Below, piece after piece: positions 15,433 through 45,445 of a stretch of DNA of 64,000 nt (position 1 is the stretch's first letter; each line of letters begins with the position of its first letter). The notes beneath the pieces were generated by a model. That model saw only the letters and a program-made list of their open reading frames with translations, made no database searches and was not told where the DNA came from. The stretch is from Candidatus Obscuribacter phosphatis. Lineage in GTDB: Bacteria > Cyanobacteriota > Vampirovibrionia > Obscuribacterales > Obscuribacteraceae. The translations under genes and the position numbers were made by a program. The DNA lies in NCBI GenBank assembly GCA_001899315.1, contig MOYA01000002.1, forward strand, positions 289,070 through 353,069, read 5' to 3'.

Positions 15433-18201
15433 TCAGGCTTCGCCTTGGCTAGACTCGGGGCTGCCGACTTTGTTATCTTGTCTGTTTTCATGCCTGTTTT
15501 CATGTTTAGATTCTTGTTTGTGCAATTCGAAACCCTTGCGGCTTACTCGCGCCTTTCTCTGCGCTTCGATGGCAAAGCCCACCATCTTTTGCCATTCAAA
15601 AGTATCACCGGGTACGCAAGCAATGCCAAAGCTATAATCCCAGTCTGAATGCCCTTCTTTCAGTTTGCCGAAATGTCTGGCGCAGATATCTGAGAAGTTG
15701 GAGACGAACATAGCGGCTAAGTTGCTGTCTAATCCGGGCATCAAAAGTGCAAAATGTTCTTCTTCAAAGTGAGTGAACCAGTCTATTGAGCGTTTGGCTT
15801 CCACGATTTCGGCCAAAGCCATATGCAGAGCCTCTTTGTCATTTATTGATAGTTGTGATGGCAATTTTCCATGTTTTCTAATTTCTAAAATGGCGATGCT
15901 GAGCGGCCACATCTGAGTGCGTGCTCTTTCAAACTCGCGCTCTATAAGCCAGATAAGAAACTCGAAACGGTAGAGTCCGGTGCGAGTATCATGCAGTTTT
16001 GCCGAAAAATCATCGGCTTGTTGTTTGTTGTAAGCCCATTTTGTAGTCAGGCGAGCGGCTATATCTTCAACATCCATGCCGTCATTCGAGATATTGACCA
16101 TACCGGCCTGCACCAGCCGATAGAGAGCATGCAGCCAGACATGTTTTGGTAAGTCAGCTAGTTCCACGGCATCAGTAACAATCGGGCTTTCGCAAAGGGC
16201 GATAAAGAGTTCCCAGATGCAGTCTTCCCACTCAATTCCGCGCCCTTCCAGTCTGGCTCTAAATTCGTCCTTGTCAGAACAAAATTCTTTGGGCATTAGG
16301 GCTGAATACATAGTCAAACCAAGCGATTTGAGATATTTGTTTTCGTCAAACAAAGTGGCTGCTTCTAGTAGAAAGCTTTGAAAGCGCACTTTCAGTGTTA
16401 TCTGGGGGGCGCGTTGCTCGGGTAGAAAGCGAAACCAGCCTTCTTCCTGAATAATGAAGTCGTAAAGCACTTCCAGACCGCTGTCTTTCAAAGAGCTGGC
16501 ATGGACCGGCTTACCTGCATCAAAATAGATAGACATTATGCCGTCTTTGCCGCTAACTTCTAAGACGCCGGTGTTGTCGTTTAGGGCAATTGTCTGCAAG
16601 AGCCCGAGGCTGGGCATGGTCTTGAGATTGCCTTCAAATATTAGGGTTTCGCGGTGACGCCTTTCTTGTTGGGCAGCATAGCCCACCGGCGGGCCATTCA
16701 CCCGGTGTTCGTTGCGCTTGTCAACTTCGAACGGTTCGGAGCTGGCGCCGAAGCTTCCACTGGCGCGGCTGGCTGAATTTGGGACTGACGGCTTGGCAGA
16801 AGATGGAAAATCGGAGCCCGTAAATTCAGGCTTACCAAGTAGGTCAAATTGGCTGGCGGCGGGCGTTTCGGGGCTGTAGCCAGCGGAGGCTTGGGCTTTT
16901 GCTTGAAATTCTTTTGGGCGATTTTGGTCCTGTAAATCAACCGATATCGGTTGATTTACAAAGCTACCACTTGACGAGTTTGAATTGATTGTATCGAAGC
17001 TGCCGCCCATGGTGAAAGGGTCTTGCCCCTTTTGGTCAAAGTCGCTGGCCGCCATATTCAAATTCATGTTCAAGTTGAGGTTGGCATTCATGCCGGCCAG
17101 GGCACTGGCGCCGAAAGCTTGGGGTTTGGTTTGCAGAGCGCGCCAGAGGTCTTTGATATGGCGCAGCACCTCTTGGGCGTCGACTGTATGAATGATTAGC
17201 TTTTCGCCCCGTCCGCCGCTTTCGGTGGATGGTTCGATGGTAAAAGTCATTTCCCCTGTATCTTTGTGGCAGACTGCCGACACAAGCAAAGATAGGGTGC
17301 CGCTAAAGCCAAGTGAAGTGAGGTAAAAGGTCTTGCCTGGCTTGCTTGCCGCCCTTTGCATCATTTCTTGAATGTTGTCCGAATCGGGAAAGGCTTTGAT
17401 GCGATGCATCGTTTGGTTGTTTTGCGGTGCCAGTTTTGCCTTTTTGAGCTTTTCGAAGGCGACGCGCTCTTCGGTTGTCAGGTTGTACAGCTGACCTTGG
17501 TCGAGAAACATGTCAAAGATGTCTGAGCGTTCCAGCTTCGACTTCTTCAAGGCTTCGCTGAATTTCTCAAGAGCTTTGAGATAGGCTTGGCGGGCAAGGT
17601 TCTTCTGACCGGCTGATTGTTCAAAAAAGGCTTGCATAGTAAATACCCGGGCCGCCAATAGTTCGGGAGGATGTGGCAAAGAGCTCATAAGTCCCTGCAG
17701 TTCTTCCATTAAGCTGCGGCAGCGGGCTAATCTTCCTGCTGCTTCGGACGCCAGGGCTGAAGCCGCCAACTGTCTGGCTCTTTGCAGATTTGAGAAGATC
17801 GAGTCGATGATTAGCTCAGCGGCTGGAATGTCCGCGCCGACAAGTTCTTTGCGAATCATAAGGGACTGATCGAACATGCGGTCGTGGCGGCTGGTGTTTT
17901 CATGCCGACTGAGGGGGTTAAACTCTGAAAGTTCGACCAATTCATCGGAAAGCTTGAGGAAGAAATGATCGTCTTTGGGGCTCACTGTCTTGAGTGTGGC
18001 TAGCAAGATTTCATCAGAAGCTTTGAAATTGCCGCTGAGCGAGAGAGCCTTGATCAGGTTGCAAGCTGTTTCATAACCATTGGCAGTTAGTTCGGGGTTT
18101 TGGCCCAGGCGGGCTTTGAGTTGATTATAGGCTTCTGAAAGGCGGTTATCTTTGATTAGTTGAGCTATGCGGTCATAATCAAAATTGCTGGTACTTTGCA
18201 A
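15433..18201 (-). CDS. TPR-PATAN(DUF4388)-degenerate GGDEF regulator
   Basis: A 922-residue cytosolic protein. It has a helical TPR-like N-terminal region (about 1-220), a long disordered Ser/Pro/Asn-rich linker (about 380-500), a PATAN/DUF4388 domain (about 515-625, with GVLEVSGKDGIMSIYFDAGKPVHA split by the linker to YDFIIQEEGWFRF), and a GGDEF-like domain (about 740-900, beginning DTRTGLYRFEFL). The catalytic GGDEF signature is replaced by HFEEEHF near residue 814, so it should not make c-di-GMP and may bind a ligand or partner instead. A 30-bp perfect palindrome lies inside the linker coding region. It is the first gene of an operon with the PPC gene. Confidence 0.8.
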   Translation of the reverse strand: MQSTSNFDYDRIAQLIKDNRLSEAYNQLKARLGQNPELTANGYETACNLIKALSLSGNFKASDEILLATLKTVSPKDDHFFLKLSDELVELSEFNPLSRHENTSRHDRMFDQSLMIRKELVGADIPAAELIIDSIFSNLQRARQLAASALASEAAGRLARCRSLMEELQGLMSSLPHPPELLAARVFTMQAFFEQSAGQKNLARQAYLKALEKFSEALKKSKLERSDIFDMFLDQGQLYNLTTEERVAFEKLKKAKLAPQNNQTMHRIKAFPDSDNIQEMMQRAASKPGKTFYLTSLGFSGTLSLLVSAVCHKDTGEMTFTIEPSTESGGRGEKLIIHTVDAQEVLRHIKDLWRALQTKPQAFGASALAGMNANLNLNMNLNMAASDFDQKGQDPFTMGGSFDTINSNSSSGSFVNQPISVDLQDQNRPKEFQAKAQASAGYSPETPAASQFDLLGKPEFTGSDFPSSAKPSVPNSASRASGSFGASSEPFEVDKRNEHRVNGPPVGYAAQQERRHRETLIFEGNLKTMPSLGLLQTIALNDNTGVLEVSGKDGIMSIYFDAGKPVHASSLKDSGLEVLYDFIIQEEGWFRFLPEQRAPQITLKVRFQSFLLEAATLFDENKYLKSLGLTMYSALMPKEFCSDKDEFRARLEGRGIEWEDCIWELFIALCESPIVTDAVELADLPKHVWLHALYRLVQAGMVNISNDGMDVEDIAARLTTKWAYNKQQADDFSAKLHDTRTGLYRFEFLIWLIEREFERARTQMWPLSIAILEIRKHGKLPSQLSINDKEALHMALAEIVEAKRSIDWFTHFEEEHFALLMPGLDSNLAAMFVSNFSDICARHFGKLKEGHSDWDYSFGIACVPGDTFEWQKMVGFAIEAQRKARVSRKGFELHKQESKHENRHENRQDNKVGSPESSQGEA
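16931..16960. repeat. 30-bp perfect palindrome, copy 1 (core ACCGATATCGGT)
   Basis: A perfect 30-bp palindrome starting TGTAAATCAACCGAT, centred between 16945 and 16946, inside the linker-coding part of the 922-residue regulator. It is in frame and encodes VNQPISVDL. It shares a 12-bp core with two other sites at 33935 and 45095. Confidence 0.9.
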
Positions 18202-33205: not shown

Positions 33206-34058
33206 GGCTTGATTTCTCTCATGTCGGCTTTTAGCAAGAAAATCGGCAGTTGATGCTTTTCAATGATTATCTTGATAGAGCGTGAATCGTAGGTGAAGGT
33301 TGTATGAAGGTAAGGTGAAGTGGAGTAAGGAAACCAGCTTGTCTTTTTTCTCTTTTGTCACCGAGCAGCGTGGACTTAATTGCTTCAGCGATACTAATAG
33401 TGGGAGAAATTAGCTTTTGAATCTTGAATCAAAGAAATGTCGAAACTATGGCGAACAGAAGCGTCATAATTTGAGGCATTTAGGTTTAAGGTGGAAATGG
33501 TTCCGATTGCAGTCGTAATGGAGCCGGCAAACGACTCCATTGAGCCTTCCTTGAATGCTGAAACTCTGCAGTTCAAATCTTCGATGTCTATTCAAGGAAG
33601 CTGATGATTATGCAATCCCTAGCCAACAAGATAGGGTCGTGTAGAGCCAGAGCTCCATTCTCCAAGCTTTGGTCGCGGAATAGTCGGCTGAATTAGCGCT
33701 TCCTTTGGATAAATCTGACTGTAGTCGTTCTTGTGATTCAATTACCTTGACTGTACCAATTTCCTTTGTCGCGAACAGGCTATGGTATCTATTCATTTGA
33801 TGCCCTCATCGCTTAGTGCCAAGCTGAATGTCACGAAGCATGCATAAACCTCTCCTTTTGGTAGCGCGATGGGTTGATTTGTTGATTTAGCCGACGGGGC
33901 TCAGAAAGTAAATTCAATGAATTTGGTTCAGGTGTAAATTGGACCGATATCGGTCCAATTTATAGGCAAGTTGTTTTTTAATTTTTTTTCTTCCTCAAAT
34001 TTTGAACTTTTTGGCTCGAAATTACGTTTATCAAATTGAACGAGCTGAGGAGAGCGCC
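33206..34058. other. Long gene-poor stretch upstream of the transposase-derived gene
   Basis: About 850 bases with no convincing gene. Two short minus-strand frames (33394-33576 and 33608-33796) have no family, no good ribosome site and are not in one frame. The right part is T-rich and contains the 28-bp palindrome at 33935. Decay of an older gene is possible but not shown. Confidence 0.4.
33935..33962. repeat. 28-bp perfect palindrome, copy 2 (core ACCGATATCGGT)
   Basis: A perfect 28-bp palindrome beginning TAAATTGGACCGAT, centred between 33948 and 33949. It is the only intergenic copy of the three and lies about 97 bases upstream of the ATG of the transposase-derived gene, where an operator could sit. 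Confidence 0.9.
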
Positions 34059-35180
34059 ATGAGTGACGATAGAAATTGCCAGTCCAGGAAAATGGACATG
34101 TTCGAGCCCGCTTACCAGGAGACTAGGCAGCTATTGCTGTCAGAGTTTAGTGAGCGATTCCCCAGTGATGAAAGCTGCTGGTCTAGCCTTGTTCAAGACT
34201 TCGCGGCTTGTGGCAGGCTTCGATGTCGTTGGTGTGGTGCTGAAAAGGTTGAAGTGCAGCAAGATTCAAGAACCCTAAGCTGTAGTGAGTGCAATAAGAA
34301 AAGTTCGATAACTGCTGGAACTTTCTTTCATGGCATCAAGAAAGTCAGAGCGTGGTTCTTTGCGATTTGGATTGTAGAGAGAGAGTTTTATGTGAGTTCG
34401 AAGTGGTTTGCACAAGCAATTGGTATATCGCAATCTTCTGCTCTCCATATTCTTAAATCTACTCTTTATTTGATCGAGGAAAATTCGGGTGTCTTCGAGA
34501 ATGTCGGATTTGGTCTTGGTGAATTTCGACTGTTTTTCAGGAAGCGCTCCGTGCTTACTCCTGCCTTGGTTAGACCTTCTTGCGAACTTCAAGAGGGTGC
34601 AGGTGACCCAACAAATCATGAGAATTACACAAGTAACTCAGATGGTTCATGGGTTGATGTGACTGCCTCTGAAGAGGACTCTGTTCGCGGGGCTGTCATT
34701 TCAGCGCTAAGGAAAGGTAGCAGAAGTCTAGATGAAATCAAAAGTATAACTAAGCACAGTAGCAGTGATGTTCTAGCAGCAATCACAGATCTGGAGCTTG
34801 ACGGTGAGATCTCTGCAATCGCTGGCAACAGATTCCAGCTGTGCCAGAAAGTGGAATCAGGACTACTTAGTCTCAAAGAGGAAGTGATGCGTAAGCAATC
34901 TGAAGATTCAAAGTCCATTTTCAACGCAGCCGCCCTTTTCAGCAGGCTATCTTTAGGAATTGTACGAGGTGTTAGTCGAAAGTACCTGAGTCTGTATCTT
35001 GGCTTCGCCAACAGTTTGGCGGCACGGGATGTGGTCTCTGCATTCATGACTATGTGTATAGAGAGCCCGTATATTGGTTCTAAACGGCTAAGGGCATATG
35101 CAAGTGCTGCTATTCTTCCGATTAGGCTGAGTGAACCGTACCTATCTGATTTTCAGGATGAGGTTTCTCAGGCATTTTAG
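34059..35180 (+). CDS. Transposase-derived zinc-ribbon protein fused to a winged-helix domain
   Basis: A 373-residue protein. Residues about 53-85 form a zinc ribbon (CRWCG and CSECNK), followed by TAGTFFHGIKKVRAWFFAIW and a helix-turn-helix (about 105-135, WFAQAIGISQSSALHILKS). This is the N-terminal layout of IS1595/ISXO2-type transposases. The DDE catalytic core that should follow is absent. Instead there is a DprA-type winged helix (about 205-260, VRGAVISALRKGSRSLDEI) and a helical C-terminus of about 100 residues. I infer a domesticated DNA-binding protein. The ATG at 34059 has GAGGAG upstream; an upstream TTG (34002) would add 19 residues. No terminal inverted repeats were seen around it. 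Confidence 0.65.
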   Translation: MSDDRNCQSRKMDMFEPAYQETRQLLLSEFSERFPSDESCWSSLVQDFAACGRLRCRWCGAEKVEVQQDSRTLSCSECNKKSSITAGTFFHGIKKVRAWFFAIWIVEREFYVSSKWFAQAIGISQSSALHILKSTLYLIEENSGVFENVGFGLGEFRLFFRKRSVLTPALVRPSCELQEGAGDPTNHENYTSNSDGSWVDVTASEEDSVRGAVISALRKGSRSLDEIKSITKHSSSDVLAAITDLELDGEISAIAGNRFQLCQKVESGLLSLKEEVMRKQSEDSKSIFNAAALFSRLSLGIVRGVSRKYLSLYLGFANSLAARDVVSAFMTMCIESPYIGSKRLRAYASAAILPIRLSEPYLSDFQDEVSQAF

Positions 35181-42805: not shown

Positions 42806-45445
42806 ATGGCAAGCCACCGCTGTGTCAATGTGAGGGTGAAAGGTATTGTTCAGGGGGTGGGTTTTCGCCCTTTCGTCTACGTTCTTGCCACAAAGTATAA
42901 GCTGACTGGCTTTGTACTCAATGACACAATGGGCGTCGAAATCGAGCTTTGCGGACCCGCCGACGACATTGATTGCTTTCTTTCCGACCTCAAAGTCAAG
43001 TTGCCAGCGGCTGCCAGAATTGACGAAGTAACATTGCAAGAAATTGATGCGGATTCGACAAGCAGAACCTATACATCTTTTGAGATTGCCGAAAGCCGCC
43101 AGCTTGGCGGAAATATTGCTACCCGCATATCTCCCGATTTGGCAGTTTGTCGAGATTGTCTGAGCGATTTGTTCGAAGGAGACGGGCACGGGGCTTTAGA
43201 AACCTATTTGGAGAATTTTTCAGAGATTTTTGCGGCTGGCTTTATAGAGGTCCGTGCAGACGCAGGTTTTGCAGATAAAAGCTCTGCAAATACAGGCTCT
43301 GCAGATACCGGCTGTGCAGATATTGGCTCTGTAAATCCACACTCTGCAAGTACAGGCTCTGCAGATATAGGCTCTGCAGATATAGGCTCTGCAGATATTG
43401 GCTCTGTAGATATTGGCTCTGTAGATACGGGGCACACCAAAGGGCTCTCGGCTTTAGACGCAAGCTCTTCCGCCCCGGAGAACGCCTATCATCACTATCC
43501 CTATGTCAATTGCACAAACTGTGGACCTCGCTTTTCCATTATCAAAGCTCTTCCTTACGATCGTCCATTTACCACTATGTCAGCGTTTCCCATGTGTGCT
43601 GCTTGTTCTTCCAGCTATCAAAACCCGCTAGATAGAAGATTCCATGCCCAGCCGGTCGCTTGCAATCAGTGCGGACCTAGTTATTTTTTGACTGATCCAA
43701 AGCTCTCCAACGGTTCAACAATCGGTTCAACAATTGCTAGAGGCGATGAAGCCATTAGGCGGGCGGTAGAGGCACTTAACGATGGCTTGATTTTGGCTAT
43801 CAAGGGCATAGGCGGCTATCATCTCGCCCTCGATGCCAGCAATAAGAACGCTCTTATCGCCTTGCGCGAACGTAAGTATCGTCGATCCAAGCCCTTCGCC
43901 ATAATGGTGCCCGATCTTGCTTCAGCTCGCCGACTCGCATGTCTTGACGAAGAGGGGCAAAAATTGCTTGCTGCAGTTGCGCGCCCCATTGTTATCGCAC
44001 CAGCAAAGACCGAGAGCAGTTTAGCGCCATTTCTGCACTTGATCAGCCCAGACAATCTTGATATCGGCTTACTATTGCCGTACACCCCTTTGCACTATTT
44101 GCTGTTTGCTGCTGGTGCACCTGCAGCAATGGTATTCACAAGTGCCAATATTTCGGGCGAACCGATTGCTTATCTTGATGAAGACGCCTATGCCGATTTG
44201 CAGGGTCTAGCCGATCTTTTCTTGATCGGTGAAAGACCAATTCAGAGACGCATCGATGACTCTGTTGTGTCGGTGGTCGGCAAAGAACCTCTCATGGTCC
44301 GCCGCTCTCGAGGCTATGCACCTGATGCTGTTGCCAGATTACCTAGAGAGCAAGACTTCATTTTGGCGCTGGGCGGCGATTTGAAGAACACGGTCTCTTT
44401 GTCTGTCGGCGGGCAAGTCTTCATGAGTCAGTATGTTGGCGACTTGGAGCACTCTTCTTGCTTTGATGCTTTTGAAGAGACGATTGCGGATCTTCTCTCA
44501 ATGTACAAAGTGCCGAGGTCTAACCTGGTGGTGGCATACGATCTTCATCCCAACTACAGATCATCTCGTAACCGAGATAGCATCGAGGCTTCTAGGTTTA
44601 TAGGAGTACAGCATCACCGCGCCCATATTGCTTCTGTTTTGGCTGAGCACAATAAGATGGACGAATTGGTCTTGGGCTTGGCTATGGACGGAACCGGCTA
44701 TGGTGATGATCAGGCAATTTGGGGCGGAGAAGTTTTTCTAGGGTCGGTGCGCTCGGGTTTTGAGCGGATTTGCCATCTTGATTATGCTCTATTGCCGGGT
44801 GGTGATGCCGCCGCTCGCTTCCCGCAGCAAGCTCTGGCTGGTTATCTAGATGAAAAGACCAGAAATGCCCTAATGAGCGAATCCTTTTTTCAATTTGATG
44901 AACACTATTCAAATGCAGTGAAAATGATCGAAAAGAATTTGAGGGTATTCAAGAGTTCTTCGATGGGTCGTCTCTTTGACGCCGTTGCCGCCCTTTGTGG
45001 CTTTGTTGGCGAGGTGCAATTTGAGGCGCAAGCTGCCATCTGGCTTGAACATCAGGCTCGTGGGCAGTTGAAAAAAATTGGCGAAATTGACAGGTCAAAA
45101 TTGGACCGATATCGGTTCAATTTTGAGGGTGAAACGCTTGACTTCAAATTTGCCCTCTCGGCTGTGGTCGAAGATCGCCTGAACGGCGTCAAGCCCGGCG
45201 CTGTGGCGCTTTCCTTCCATTTGGCATTGGCCGTGTCCTTGGCTGACGCCCTAGAAGCATTGTCTTTTGCTCATCAAGTCAGGATAGTTGCCGCCTCAGG
45301 CGGCGTGATGCAGAACAGTCTTTTGTCCGACTTTCTACGAGATGAATTGTCAAGGCGAGGGCTGGCTTTGTTGCTCAATAGAGCGGTCCCGCCAAACGAT
45401 GGTGGTTTATCTCTTGGCCAGGTTGCCTTGGCAAGTTTCAGCTAA
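42806..45445 (+). CDS. hypF: Carbamoyltransferase HypF with repeat insertion
   Basis: An 879-residue protein, longer than the usual 750 or so. Order: acylphosphatase domain (1-90, GIVQGVGFRPFV), first zinc pair CRDC near residue 115, an insertion of about 100 residues containing twelve five-residue repeats, then CTNCGPRFSI (near 236), CAAC and CNQC, a YrdC-like domain (about 310-480) and a Kae1/carbamoyltransferase domain with HHRAHIASVLAEH and GGVMQNSLL. It makes thiocarbamate on HypE from carbamoyl phosphate and ATP. The insert splits the zinc-finger module but leaves all cysteines. A near-perfect 32-bp palindrome lies within its coding sequence at 45095. Confidence 0.95.
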   Translation: MASHRCVNVRVKGIVQGVGFRPFVYVLATKYKLTGFVLNDTMGVEIELCGPADDIDCFLSDLKVKLPAAARIDEVTLQEIDADSTSRTYTSFEIAESRQLGGNIATRISPDLAVCRDCLSDLFEGDGHGALETYLENFSEIFAAGFIEVRADAGFADKSSANTGSADTGCADIGSVNPHSASTGSADIGSADIGSADIGSVDIGSVDTGHTKGLSALDASSSAPENAYHHYPYVNCTNCGPRFSIIKALPYDRPFTTMSAFPMCAACSSSYQNPLDRRFHAQPVACNQCGPSYFLTDPKLSNGSTIGSTIARGDEAIRRAVEALNDGLILAIKGIGGYHLALDASNKNALIALRERKYRRSKPFAIMVPDLASARRLACLDEEGQKLLAAVARPIVIAPAKTESSLAPFLHLISPDNLDIGLLLPYTPLHYLLFAAGAPAAMVFTSANISGEPIAYLDEDAYADLQGLADLFLIGERPIQRRIDDSVVSVVGKEPLMVRRSRGYAPDAVARLPREQDFILALGGDLKNTVSLSVGGQVFMSQYVGDLEHSSCFDAFEETIADLLSMYKVPRSNLVVAYDLHPNYRSSRNRDSIEASRFIGVQHHRAHIASVLAEHNKMDELVLGLAMDGTGYGDDQAIWGGEVFLGSVRSGFERICHLDYALLPGGDAAARFPQQALAGYLDEKTRNALMSESFFQFDEHYSNAVKMIEKNLRVFKSSSMGRLFDAVAALCGFVGEVQFEAQAAIWLEHQARGQLKKIGEIDRSKLDRYRFNFEGETLDFKFALSAVVEDRLNGVKPGAVALSFHLALAVSLADALEALSFAHQVRIVAASGGVMQNSLLSDFLRDELSRRGLALLLNRAVPPNDGGLSLGQVALASFS
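43256..43435 (+). repeat. 15-bp coding tandem repeat inside hypF (ADIGS)
   Basis: Twelve 15-bp units close to gcagatataggctct encode ADAGF, ADKSS, ANTGS, ADTGC, ADIGS, VNPHS, ASTGS, then ADIGS three times, VDIGS and VDTGH. The middle copies are nearly identical, the edge copies diverged, as in an array growing from its centre. The units partly fit the pentapeptide-repeat pattern A(D/N)(L/I)xx. Confidence 0.92.
45095..45126. repeat. 32-bp palindrome, copy 3 (core ACCGATATCGGT)
   Basis: A 32-bp palindrome with one mismatched pair (G at 45104 opposite T at 45117), starting TCAAAATTGGACCGAT, centred between 45110 and 45111 inside hypF. Its left half matches copy 2 at AAATTGGACCGAT. The reading frame passes through it as KLDRYRFNF. 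Confidence 0.9.

Follow-up and report, generated by a model that had tools for sequence, protein, structure and literature searches.

Transposase-derived proteins with a DprA-type winged helix, a shared competence-type promoter and private local palindromes in an Obscuribacterales genome

The 64-kb stretch of DNA analysed here (the window) contains a gene whose product joins the two ends of an IS1595-type transposase to a winged helix of the DprA type. The gene is preceded by a ribosome-binding site, a promoter and a palindrome that is its putative operator, and two further palindromes lie at some distance on either side (Table 1). The original prediction for this locus was a domesticated regulator with a perfect 28-bp palindrome about 97 bases before its start; the palindrome is indeed perfect and lies about 96 bases before the ATG. 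The prediction had overlooked 18 paralogs of the gene, the competence-type promoter and the local satellite palindromes.

Table 1 Features of the window associated with the transposase-derived gene.
Feature	Position	Strand	Basis or remark
IS1595-front/DprA-winged-helix/IS1595-tail gene, 373 aa	34059..35180	+	ORF, Pfam, sister-species ortholog
IS1595-type zinc ribbon and helix-turn-helix, codons 28-142	34140..34484	+	HHalign to L196, E=1.5e-14
DprA-type winged helix, codons 203-257	34665..34829	+	Pfam; aligned with C-terminus of the genome's own DprA
Tail with G-x-SRKYL-x-LYL motif, codons 285-345, IS1595 transposase C-terminal remnant	34911..35093	+	HHalign
Purine-rich ribosome-binding site GAGGAGAG, before window gene	34047..34054	+	Sequence
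Promoter TTGAACTTTTTGGCTCGAAATTACGTTT, before window gene	34002..34029	+	36 strict-form occurrences in genome
28-bp perfect palindrome TAAATTGGACCGATATCGGTCCAATTTA, putative operator, before promoter	33935..33962	.	Sequence; same arms at sister-species ortholog
Satellite palindrome TGTAAATCAACCGATATCGGTTGATTTACA, in 922-aa ORF, 17 kb from window gene	16931..16960	.	Conserved at homologous place in sister species
Satellite palindrome TCAAAATTGGACCGATATCGGTTCAATTTTGA, with window gene's arms, in 879-aa ORF, 11 kb from gene	45095..45126	.	Core conserved in sister species

The predicted IS1595-type zinc ribbon and helix-turn-helix were borne out by profile comparison, in which the family profile matched the front of L196, a relative's transposase, at 98.3% in HHalign (E-value as in Table 1); L196 is a genuine IS1595 transposase and passes both IS1595 Pfam models. 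The front of the window protein itself is too diverged to find a Pfam match; Zn_ribbon_IS1595 gave weak matches in family members L203 and L207, and the cysteines C56, C59, C75 and C78 of the zinc ribbon are conserved across the family. Residues 203-257 match DprA_WH above the Pfam cut-off (E=4e-7), and this winged helix occupies the place of the DDE region, as had been proposed: the profile search found no DDE core, and none of the 38 family members matched DDE_Tnp_IS1595 at E≤0.01. The helical tail, previously taken to be unique, is not, because it aligns with residues 265-321 of L196 as a second, collinear domain (9.2 bits in HHalign), which identifies the catalytic middle as the part that was replaced; in one member the tail also gave a match to positions 123-146 of DDE_Tnp_IS1595 at E=0.18. 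Pfam detected in the family proteins neither the Rossmann-fold DNA-binding core of DprA (PF02481), for which the genome has a separate dprA gene, nor any HUH family. The window gene is not flanked by insertion-sequence terminal inverted repeats, in agreement with the earlier observation. Searches of Pfam, NCBIfam, PADLOC and PHROGs named the winged helix alone or returned nothing useful for the full protein. An AlphaFold model built from a shallow 10-row alignment was of low confidence (mean pLDDT 56), and a fold search with this model yielded nothing below E=0.001. The gene is 79% identical to its sister-species ortholog, and the substitution rates (dN 0.111, dS 0.840, dN/dS 0.13) indicate that it is under purifying selection. 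Judged by its domain make-up, the window protein is a domesticated, catalysis-free derivative of an IS1595 transposase, whose catalytic middle has given way to a linker plus a DprA-type winged helix.

The genome (5.49 Mb, Obscuribacterales) encodes 19 paralogs of this family, the window gene included, most of them 30-50% identical over their best-matching stretch. For 18 of the 19, the reciprocal best hit in the sister species G002 is a single gene with 65-80% identity. The exception, L031 (C2:688822-690032), is broken by about 1.1 kb of Ns adjoining a repeated IS-like sequence; the apparent disruption is an assembly gap and thus cannot be read as a true gene disruption. The sequence next to this gap recurs at a second run of Ns, the one preceding paralog L033, and is probably an unresolved IS copy. 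DprA_WH is present in all 38 aligned family proteins. Family matches (E≤1e-10) were retrieved from 41 of the 53 genomes of the order, of which 40 belong to the bacterial family that includes the window's genome (50 genomes in total) and one lies outside it (2.7e-11). When genome contigs were searched with a profile of a 16-member alignment, the sister-species MAG was the sole find. To our knowledge, the host organism is uncultured.

All 19 paralogs share the promoter TTGAACTTTTT-N-CGT close before their start, as an exact copy in 17 cases and as a near variant in two. Genome-wide, there are 36 copies of the strict form, compared with 0 for the reversed control, and they precede 17 family genes, comEC, comM, radC, dnaE, the gene for an ECF sigma factor, nine genes for AbiEi-like wHTH proteins, and 5 others; the version before dprA deviates from the family promoter by one base. 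The promoter was also found in two further genera, in G007 ahead of comM and dnaE and in G008 ahead of a ComF-like gene, so assigned by reading its sequence. Control patterns gave counts in other genomes that were low but not always zero. This gene content suggests that the genes under TTGAACTTTTT-N-CGT form a competence-type regulon. The promoter's shape, together with a sigma factor gene behind the same promoter, indicates that an ECF sigma factor is probably its reader.

The core of the palindromes, ACCGATATCGGT, has 3 exact copies in the window and 78 in the 5.5 Mb genome, versus 0 for the reversed control. A palindrome stands before the promoter in 15 of the 19 paralogs; most of these have the core ACCGATATCGGT, some have variant cores, and some are short or imperfect. 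The four paralogs in which a strong palindrome is missing all belong to one subclade. The arms of the 15 putative operators are 82.5% self-complementary (37% with shuffled partners), the arms of different paralogs share 33%, and the sister-species orthologs keep the arms of their own paralog. Where both positions of an arm pair differ between the two species, 11 of 14 pairs are still paired; this is equally compatible with binding by a dimer, with palindrome correction and with a constraint on a hairpin or cruciform.

The palindromes also occur as satellites away from the genes, and these tend to resemble the putative operator of their own neighbourhood. Nineteen of the 38 satellite clusters on contigs C1 and C2 lie no more than 25 kb from one of nine genes with the same core, against an expectation of 4.3 (P=4e-9); the remaining 19 have no gene of the same core within that distance. 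Positions 7-14 of the satellites match the local gene's putative operator at 5.8 of 8 positions, compared with 3.7 when genes were permuted (P≤5e-5), and in 21 of 36 cases the local gene is the best or tied arm match. Of the two satellites in the window, the one at 16931 has arms unlike those of the window gene's putative operator. We wrote down, before fetching the regions, the prediction that the variant-core paralogs L032, L034, L037 and L039 would own local variant copies. Two 34-bp variant-core copies were found at +19 kb from L032 and one variant-core copy at -22.5 kb from L034, as predicted. For L037, whose gene lies near 113 kb of C4, the prediction failed, no second copy of its palindrome being present in the 120-kb stretch at C4 52-172 kb; the arms of the nearest sites are those of L036, and the site at C4:135180 agrees with L036 rather than L037. 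The L039 copy at -19 kb (C2) was known before the prediction and is not a new test, so the score is 2 of 3 unseen cases. An unvalidated ORF call places over half of the mapped sites, 69 in all, inside ORFs and several more between convergent genes, some of the latter with A/T-tract arms. Tandem arrays of 4-5 palindromes with a period of about 40-57 bp were observed at L141 (C1:478761-478993), L043 (C1:2873774-2874000), L145 (C2:680586-680777) and L150 (C3:741649-741780).

Of 47 homologous places in G002, identified by aligning the flanks with the site masked, 43 keep the core, which at the flank rate has a chance probability of about 1e-47; this is a rough figure, as sites within one tandem array are not independent. 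The four cores that are not kept comprise two near a contig end, one in a tandem array and one possible chance variant. Intragenic cores are likewise conserved, and the positions of the palindromes are common to the two species. Beyond this species pair, the pattern is likewise private and local in another genus, G007: a palindrome precedes the promoter at all four genes, and satellites that share their core type lie no more than about 20 kb away. A site also precedes family genes in G003, G017 and G022. All ten genes of G008 are preceded by palindromes of 30-64 bp, and this genome holds 11 exact core sites; since it has genes and palindromes but few core sites, satellites are not universal. 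The co-occurrence of protein and palindrome proposed in the original prediction is also seen across the order: at least three exact cores are found in 28 of 41 genomes with the protein and in 0 of 12 without it (Fisher P=2e-5, a statistic that ignores kinship). G044, with 17 family matches and 0 ACCGATATCGGT sites, presumably uses other cores.

A transposase-derived protein paired with the palindrome is the part of the original prediction that stood. A single regulator acting on one genome-wide element was rejected, as the family has 19 members whose palindromes are private and local to each paralog. The position of the palindromes, their co-occurrence with the protein and the matching of arms strongly support a protein-palindrome pairing, and from these we infer binding. 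What is read directly from the DNA comprises the family, its domain make-up, the shared promoter, the private palindromes, their local clustering and their conservation; the timing of expression, contact with DprA and an effect on recombination are what we infer beyond that.

The competence-type promoter, the DprA-type winged helix and the local range of the palindromes together point to an action on nearby DNA during transformation. We therefore favour, at slightly under even odds (a probability of about 0.45), the reading that palindrome-paired family proteins locally control the handling of DNA during transformation via DprA. An ECF sigma factor would switch on the family genes together with the DNA-uptake genes, and each family protein would then bind its own palindrome, both at its own promoter and at satellites within about 25 kb. 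The common core would be read by the zinc ribbon and helix-turn-helix of the transposase front, and the private arms by residues that vary among paralogs. In a competent cell, the winged helix would recruit or antagonise DprA/RecA at the palindromes, such that strand exchange between the chromosome and incoming DNA would be controlled locally, being either promoted or blocked. The winged helix of Helicobacter pylori DprA does not bind DNA and mediates self-interaction (PMC4489622), making recruitment through the winged helix of the family plausible. A more specific and more tentative extension, which we consider possible but would not expect to prove right, is that the system gives individual loci an address code in natural transformation. 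A genome would hold many such loci, each with a competence-expressed, transposase-derived protein and a private set of palindromes within transformation-tract distance, and exchange with incoming DNA would be steered or blocked at each of them, for self-protection from replacement or for locus-specific pairing. Such protection would accord with the idea that transformation serves as a weapon against selfish DNA (PMC4774983), and locus-specific pairing would be compatible too.

Several other explanations account for parts of this pattern. The family proteins might be local transcription factors that regulate themselves at their own palindromes, with satellites as operators of neighbouring genes and the shared sigma factor as the sole link to competence. 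The helix-turn-helix front, the local arm matching and the palindromes situated just upstream of the promoter in 15 of the 19 paralogs agree with this, but in the ORF call above most mapped sites fall within ORFs or between convergent genes and not ahead of promoters, intragenic cores show conservation as well, and there are tandem arrays of 4-5 sites; we regard it as unlikely, though less so than the alternatives below. We find it less probable that the proteins structure the chromosome, with dimers bridging operator and satellites and folding 20-50 kb, perhaps during competence, in the manner of the regions marked by Noc, MatP or SlmA. Sites in and between genes, their range of about 25 kb, their strong conservation and the tandem arrays are all consistent with such folding, as is the self-interaction of the H. 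pylori winged helix (PMC4489622). Against it, G008 has genes and operators but few core sites, and each gene and its neighbourhood have one private code, a feature that nucleoid markers are not known to have.

Less probable again is an origin and role resembling the RAYT-REPIN system, in which hairpin palindromes were once spread by an ancestral transposase, the proteins are its remnant partners and the satellites are old local copies. Each gene does have its specific palindrome population and a palindrome beside it, and the arms change sequence while retaining complementarity (the kept double changes above, and perfect palindromes of up to 64 bp in G008). However, the proteins have neither an HUH motif nor a DDE core, the sites are local and few, and their identical positions in two species show no movement. 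A role of the palindromes chiefly as RNA hairpins or transcription terminators, with an incidental link to the family, was considered and rejected as very improbable: several sites between convergent genes and the A/T-tract arms speak for it, whereas the sites within ORFs, the match of arms to the local paralog, a core conserved beyond what a hairpin needs and the lack of a T-run behind the G008 palindromes speak against it. A normal transposase whose DDE core has diverged would explain the IS1595 front and tail, but the profile searches refute it, and the DprA winged helix in the middle of 38 of 38 proteins, the missing terminal inverted repeats and the 18 orthologous pairs defined by reciprocal best hits in two species speak against it; we give it practically no credence.

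Among known systems, RAYT (TnpA-REP) with its REPINs operates most similarly, although the family proteins lack the HUH nuclease with its catalytic tyrosine: a domesticated transposase relative has its own gene-associated palindromes, one of them beside the gene, and is inherited vertically (PMC8266576, PMC3116915). The present family differs in being derived from IS1595 rather than HUH transposases, in having lost the catalytic middle, in its many paralogs per genome and its competence-type promoter, and in having a small number of sites, which stay within about 25 kb and keep their positions. Relative to the IS1595 (ISXO2-like) transposases, with which zinc ribbon, helix-turn-helix and C-terminal end align through L196, it has gained a DprA winged helix and lacks the DDE core and terminal inverted repeats. 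With DprA (Smf) it shares the C-terminal winged helix of that protein and, but for one base, the promoter, but it has a transposase front and no Rossmann core. DNA uptake sequences (DUS/USS) are likewise over-represented short motifs in genomes with a competence-type regulon and are located in genes and between convergent genes; they number about a thousand or more copies per genome, a very high frequency not reached by the 78 copies here, whose arms are private and whose spread is local to one gene each. The chromosome markers Noc, MatP and SlmA have scattered conserved palindromes in and between genes, but there one protein marks large regions, while here each gene neighbourhood has its own code. 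Text searches of the literature, with subscription papers mostly outside their reach, found no comparable system. What appears new, in that no described system was found with it, is a large set of paralogous, putatively DNA-binding proteins that have a competence-type promoter in common and a palindrome code each, confined to the chromosomal neighbourhood of the gene.

If the family acts on transformation, DNA exchange would be controlled locus by locus, offering a testable case of gene conflict or cooperation with natural transformation. The analysis also suggests a promoter and a sigma factor for the competence genes of non-photosynthetic cyanobacteria. In three genera, this promoter also precedes genes for small secreted Spy/LTXXQ-like or similar proteins (L060, L252, L262, L272 and L275), and with such envelope-protein genes the regulon may exceed competence. 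In G008, the promoter also precedes a gene for a Vsr-like endonuclease, as read from its sequence (L259). Many non-family promoters of the regulon, those of L059, L063, L070 and L124-L126 among them, have a TTAAT-like element on the upstream side of the -35, some 20 bases ahead of TTGAAC. The nine AbiEi-like wHTH genes (L044, L046, L056, L063, L069, L072, L124, L125 and L126) constitute a second family under this promoter, and where the promoter surroundings were examined, four of the nine have a palindrome of their own nearby, with an AAGAA(A)TTT-like arm.
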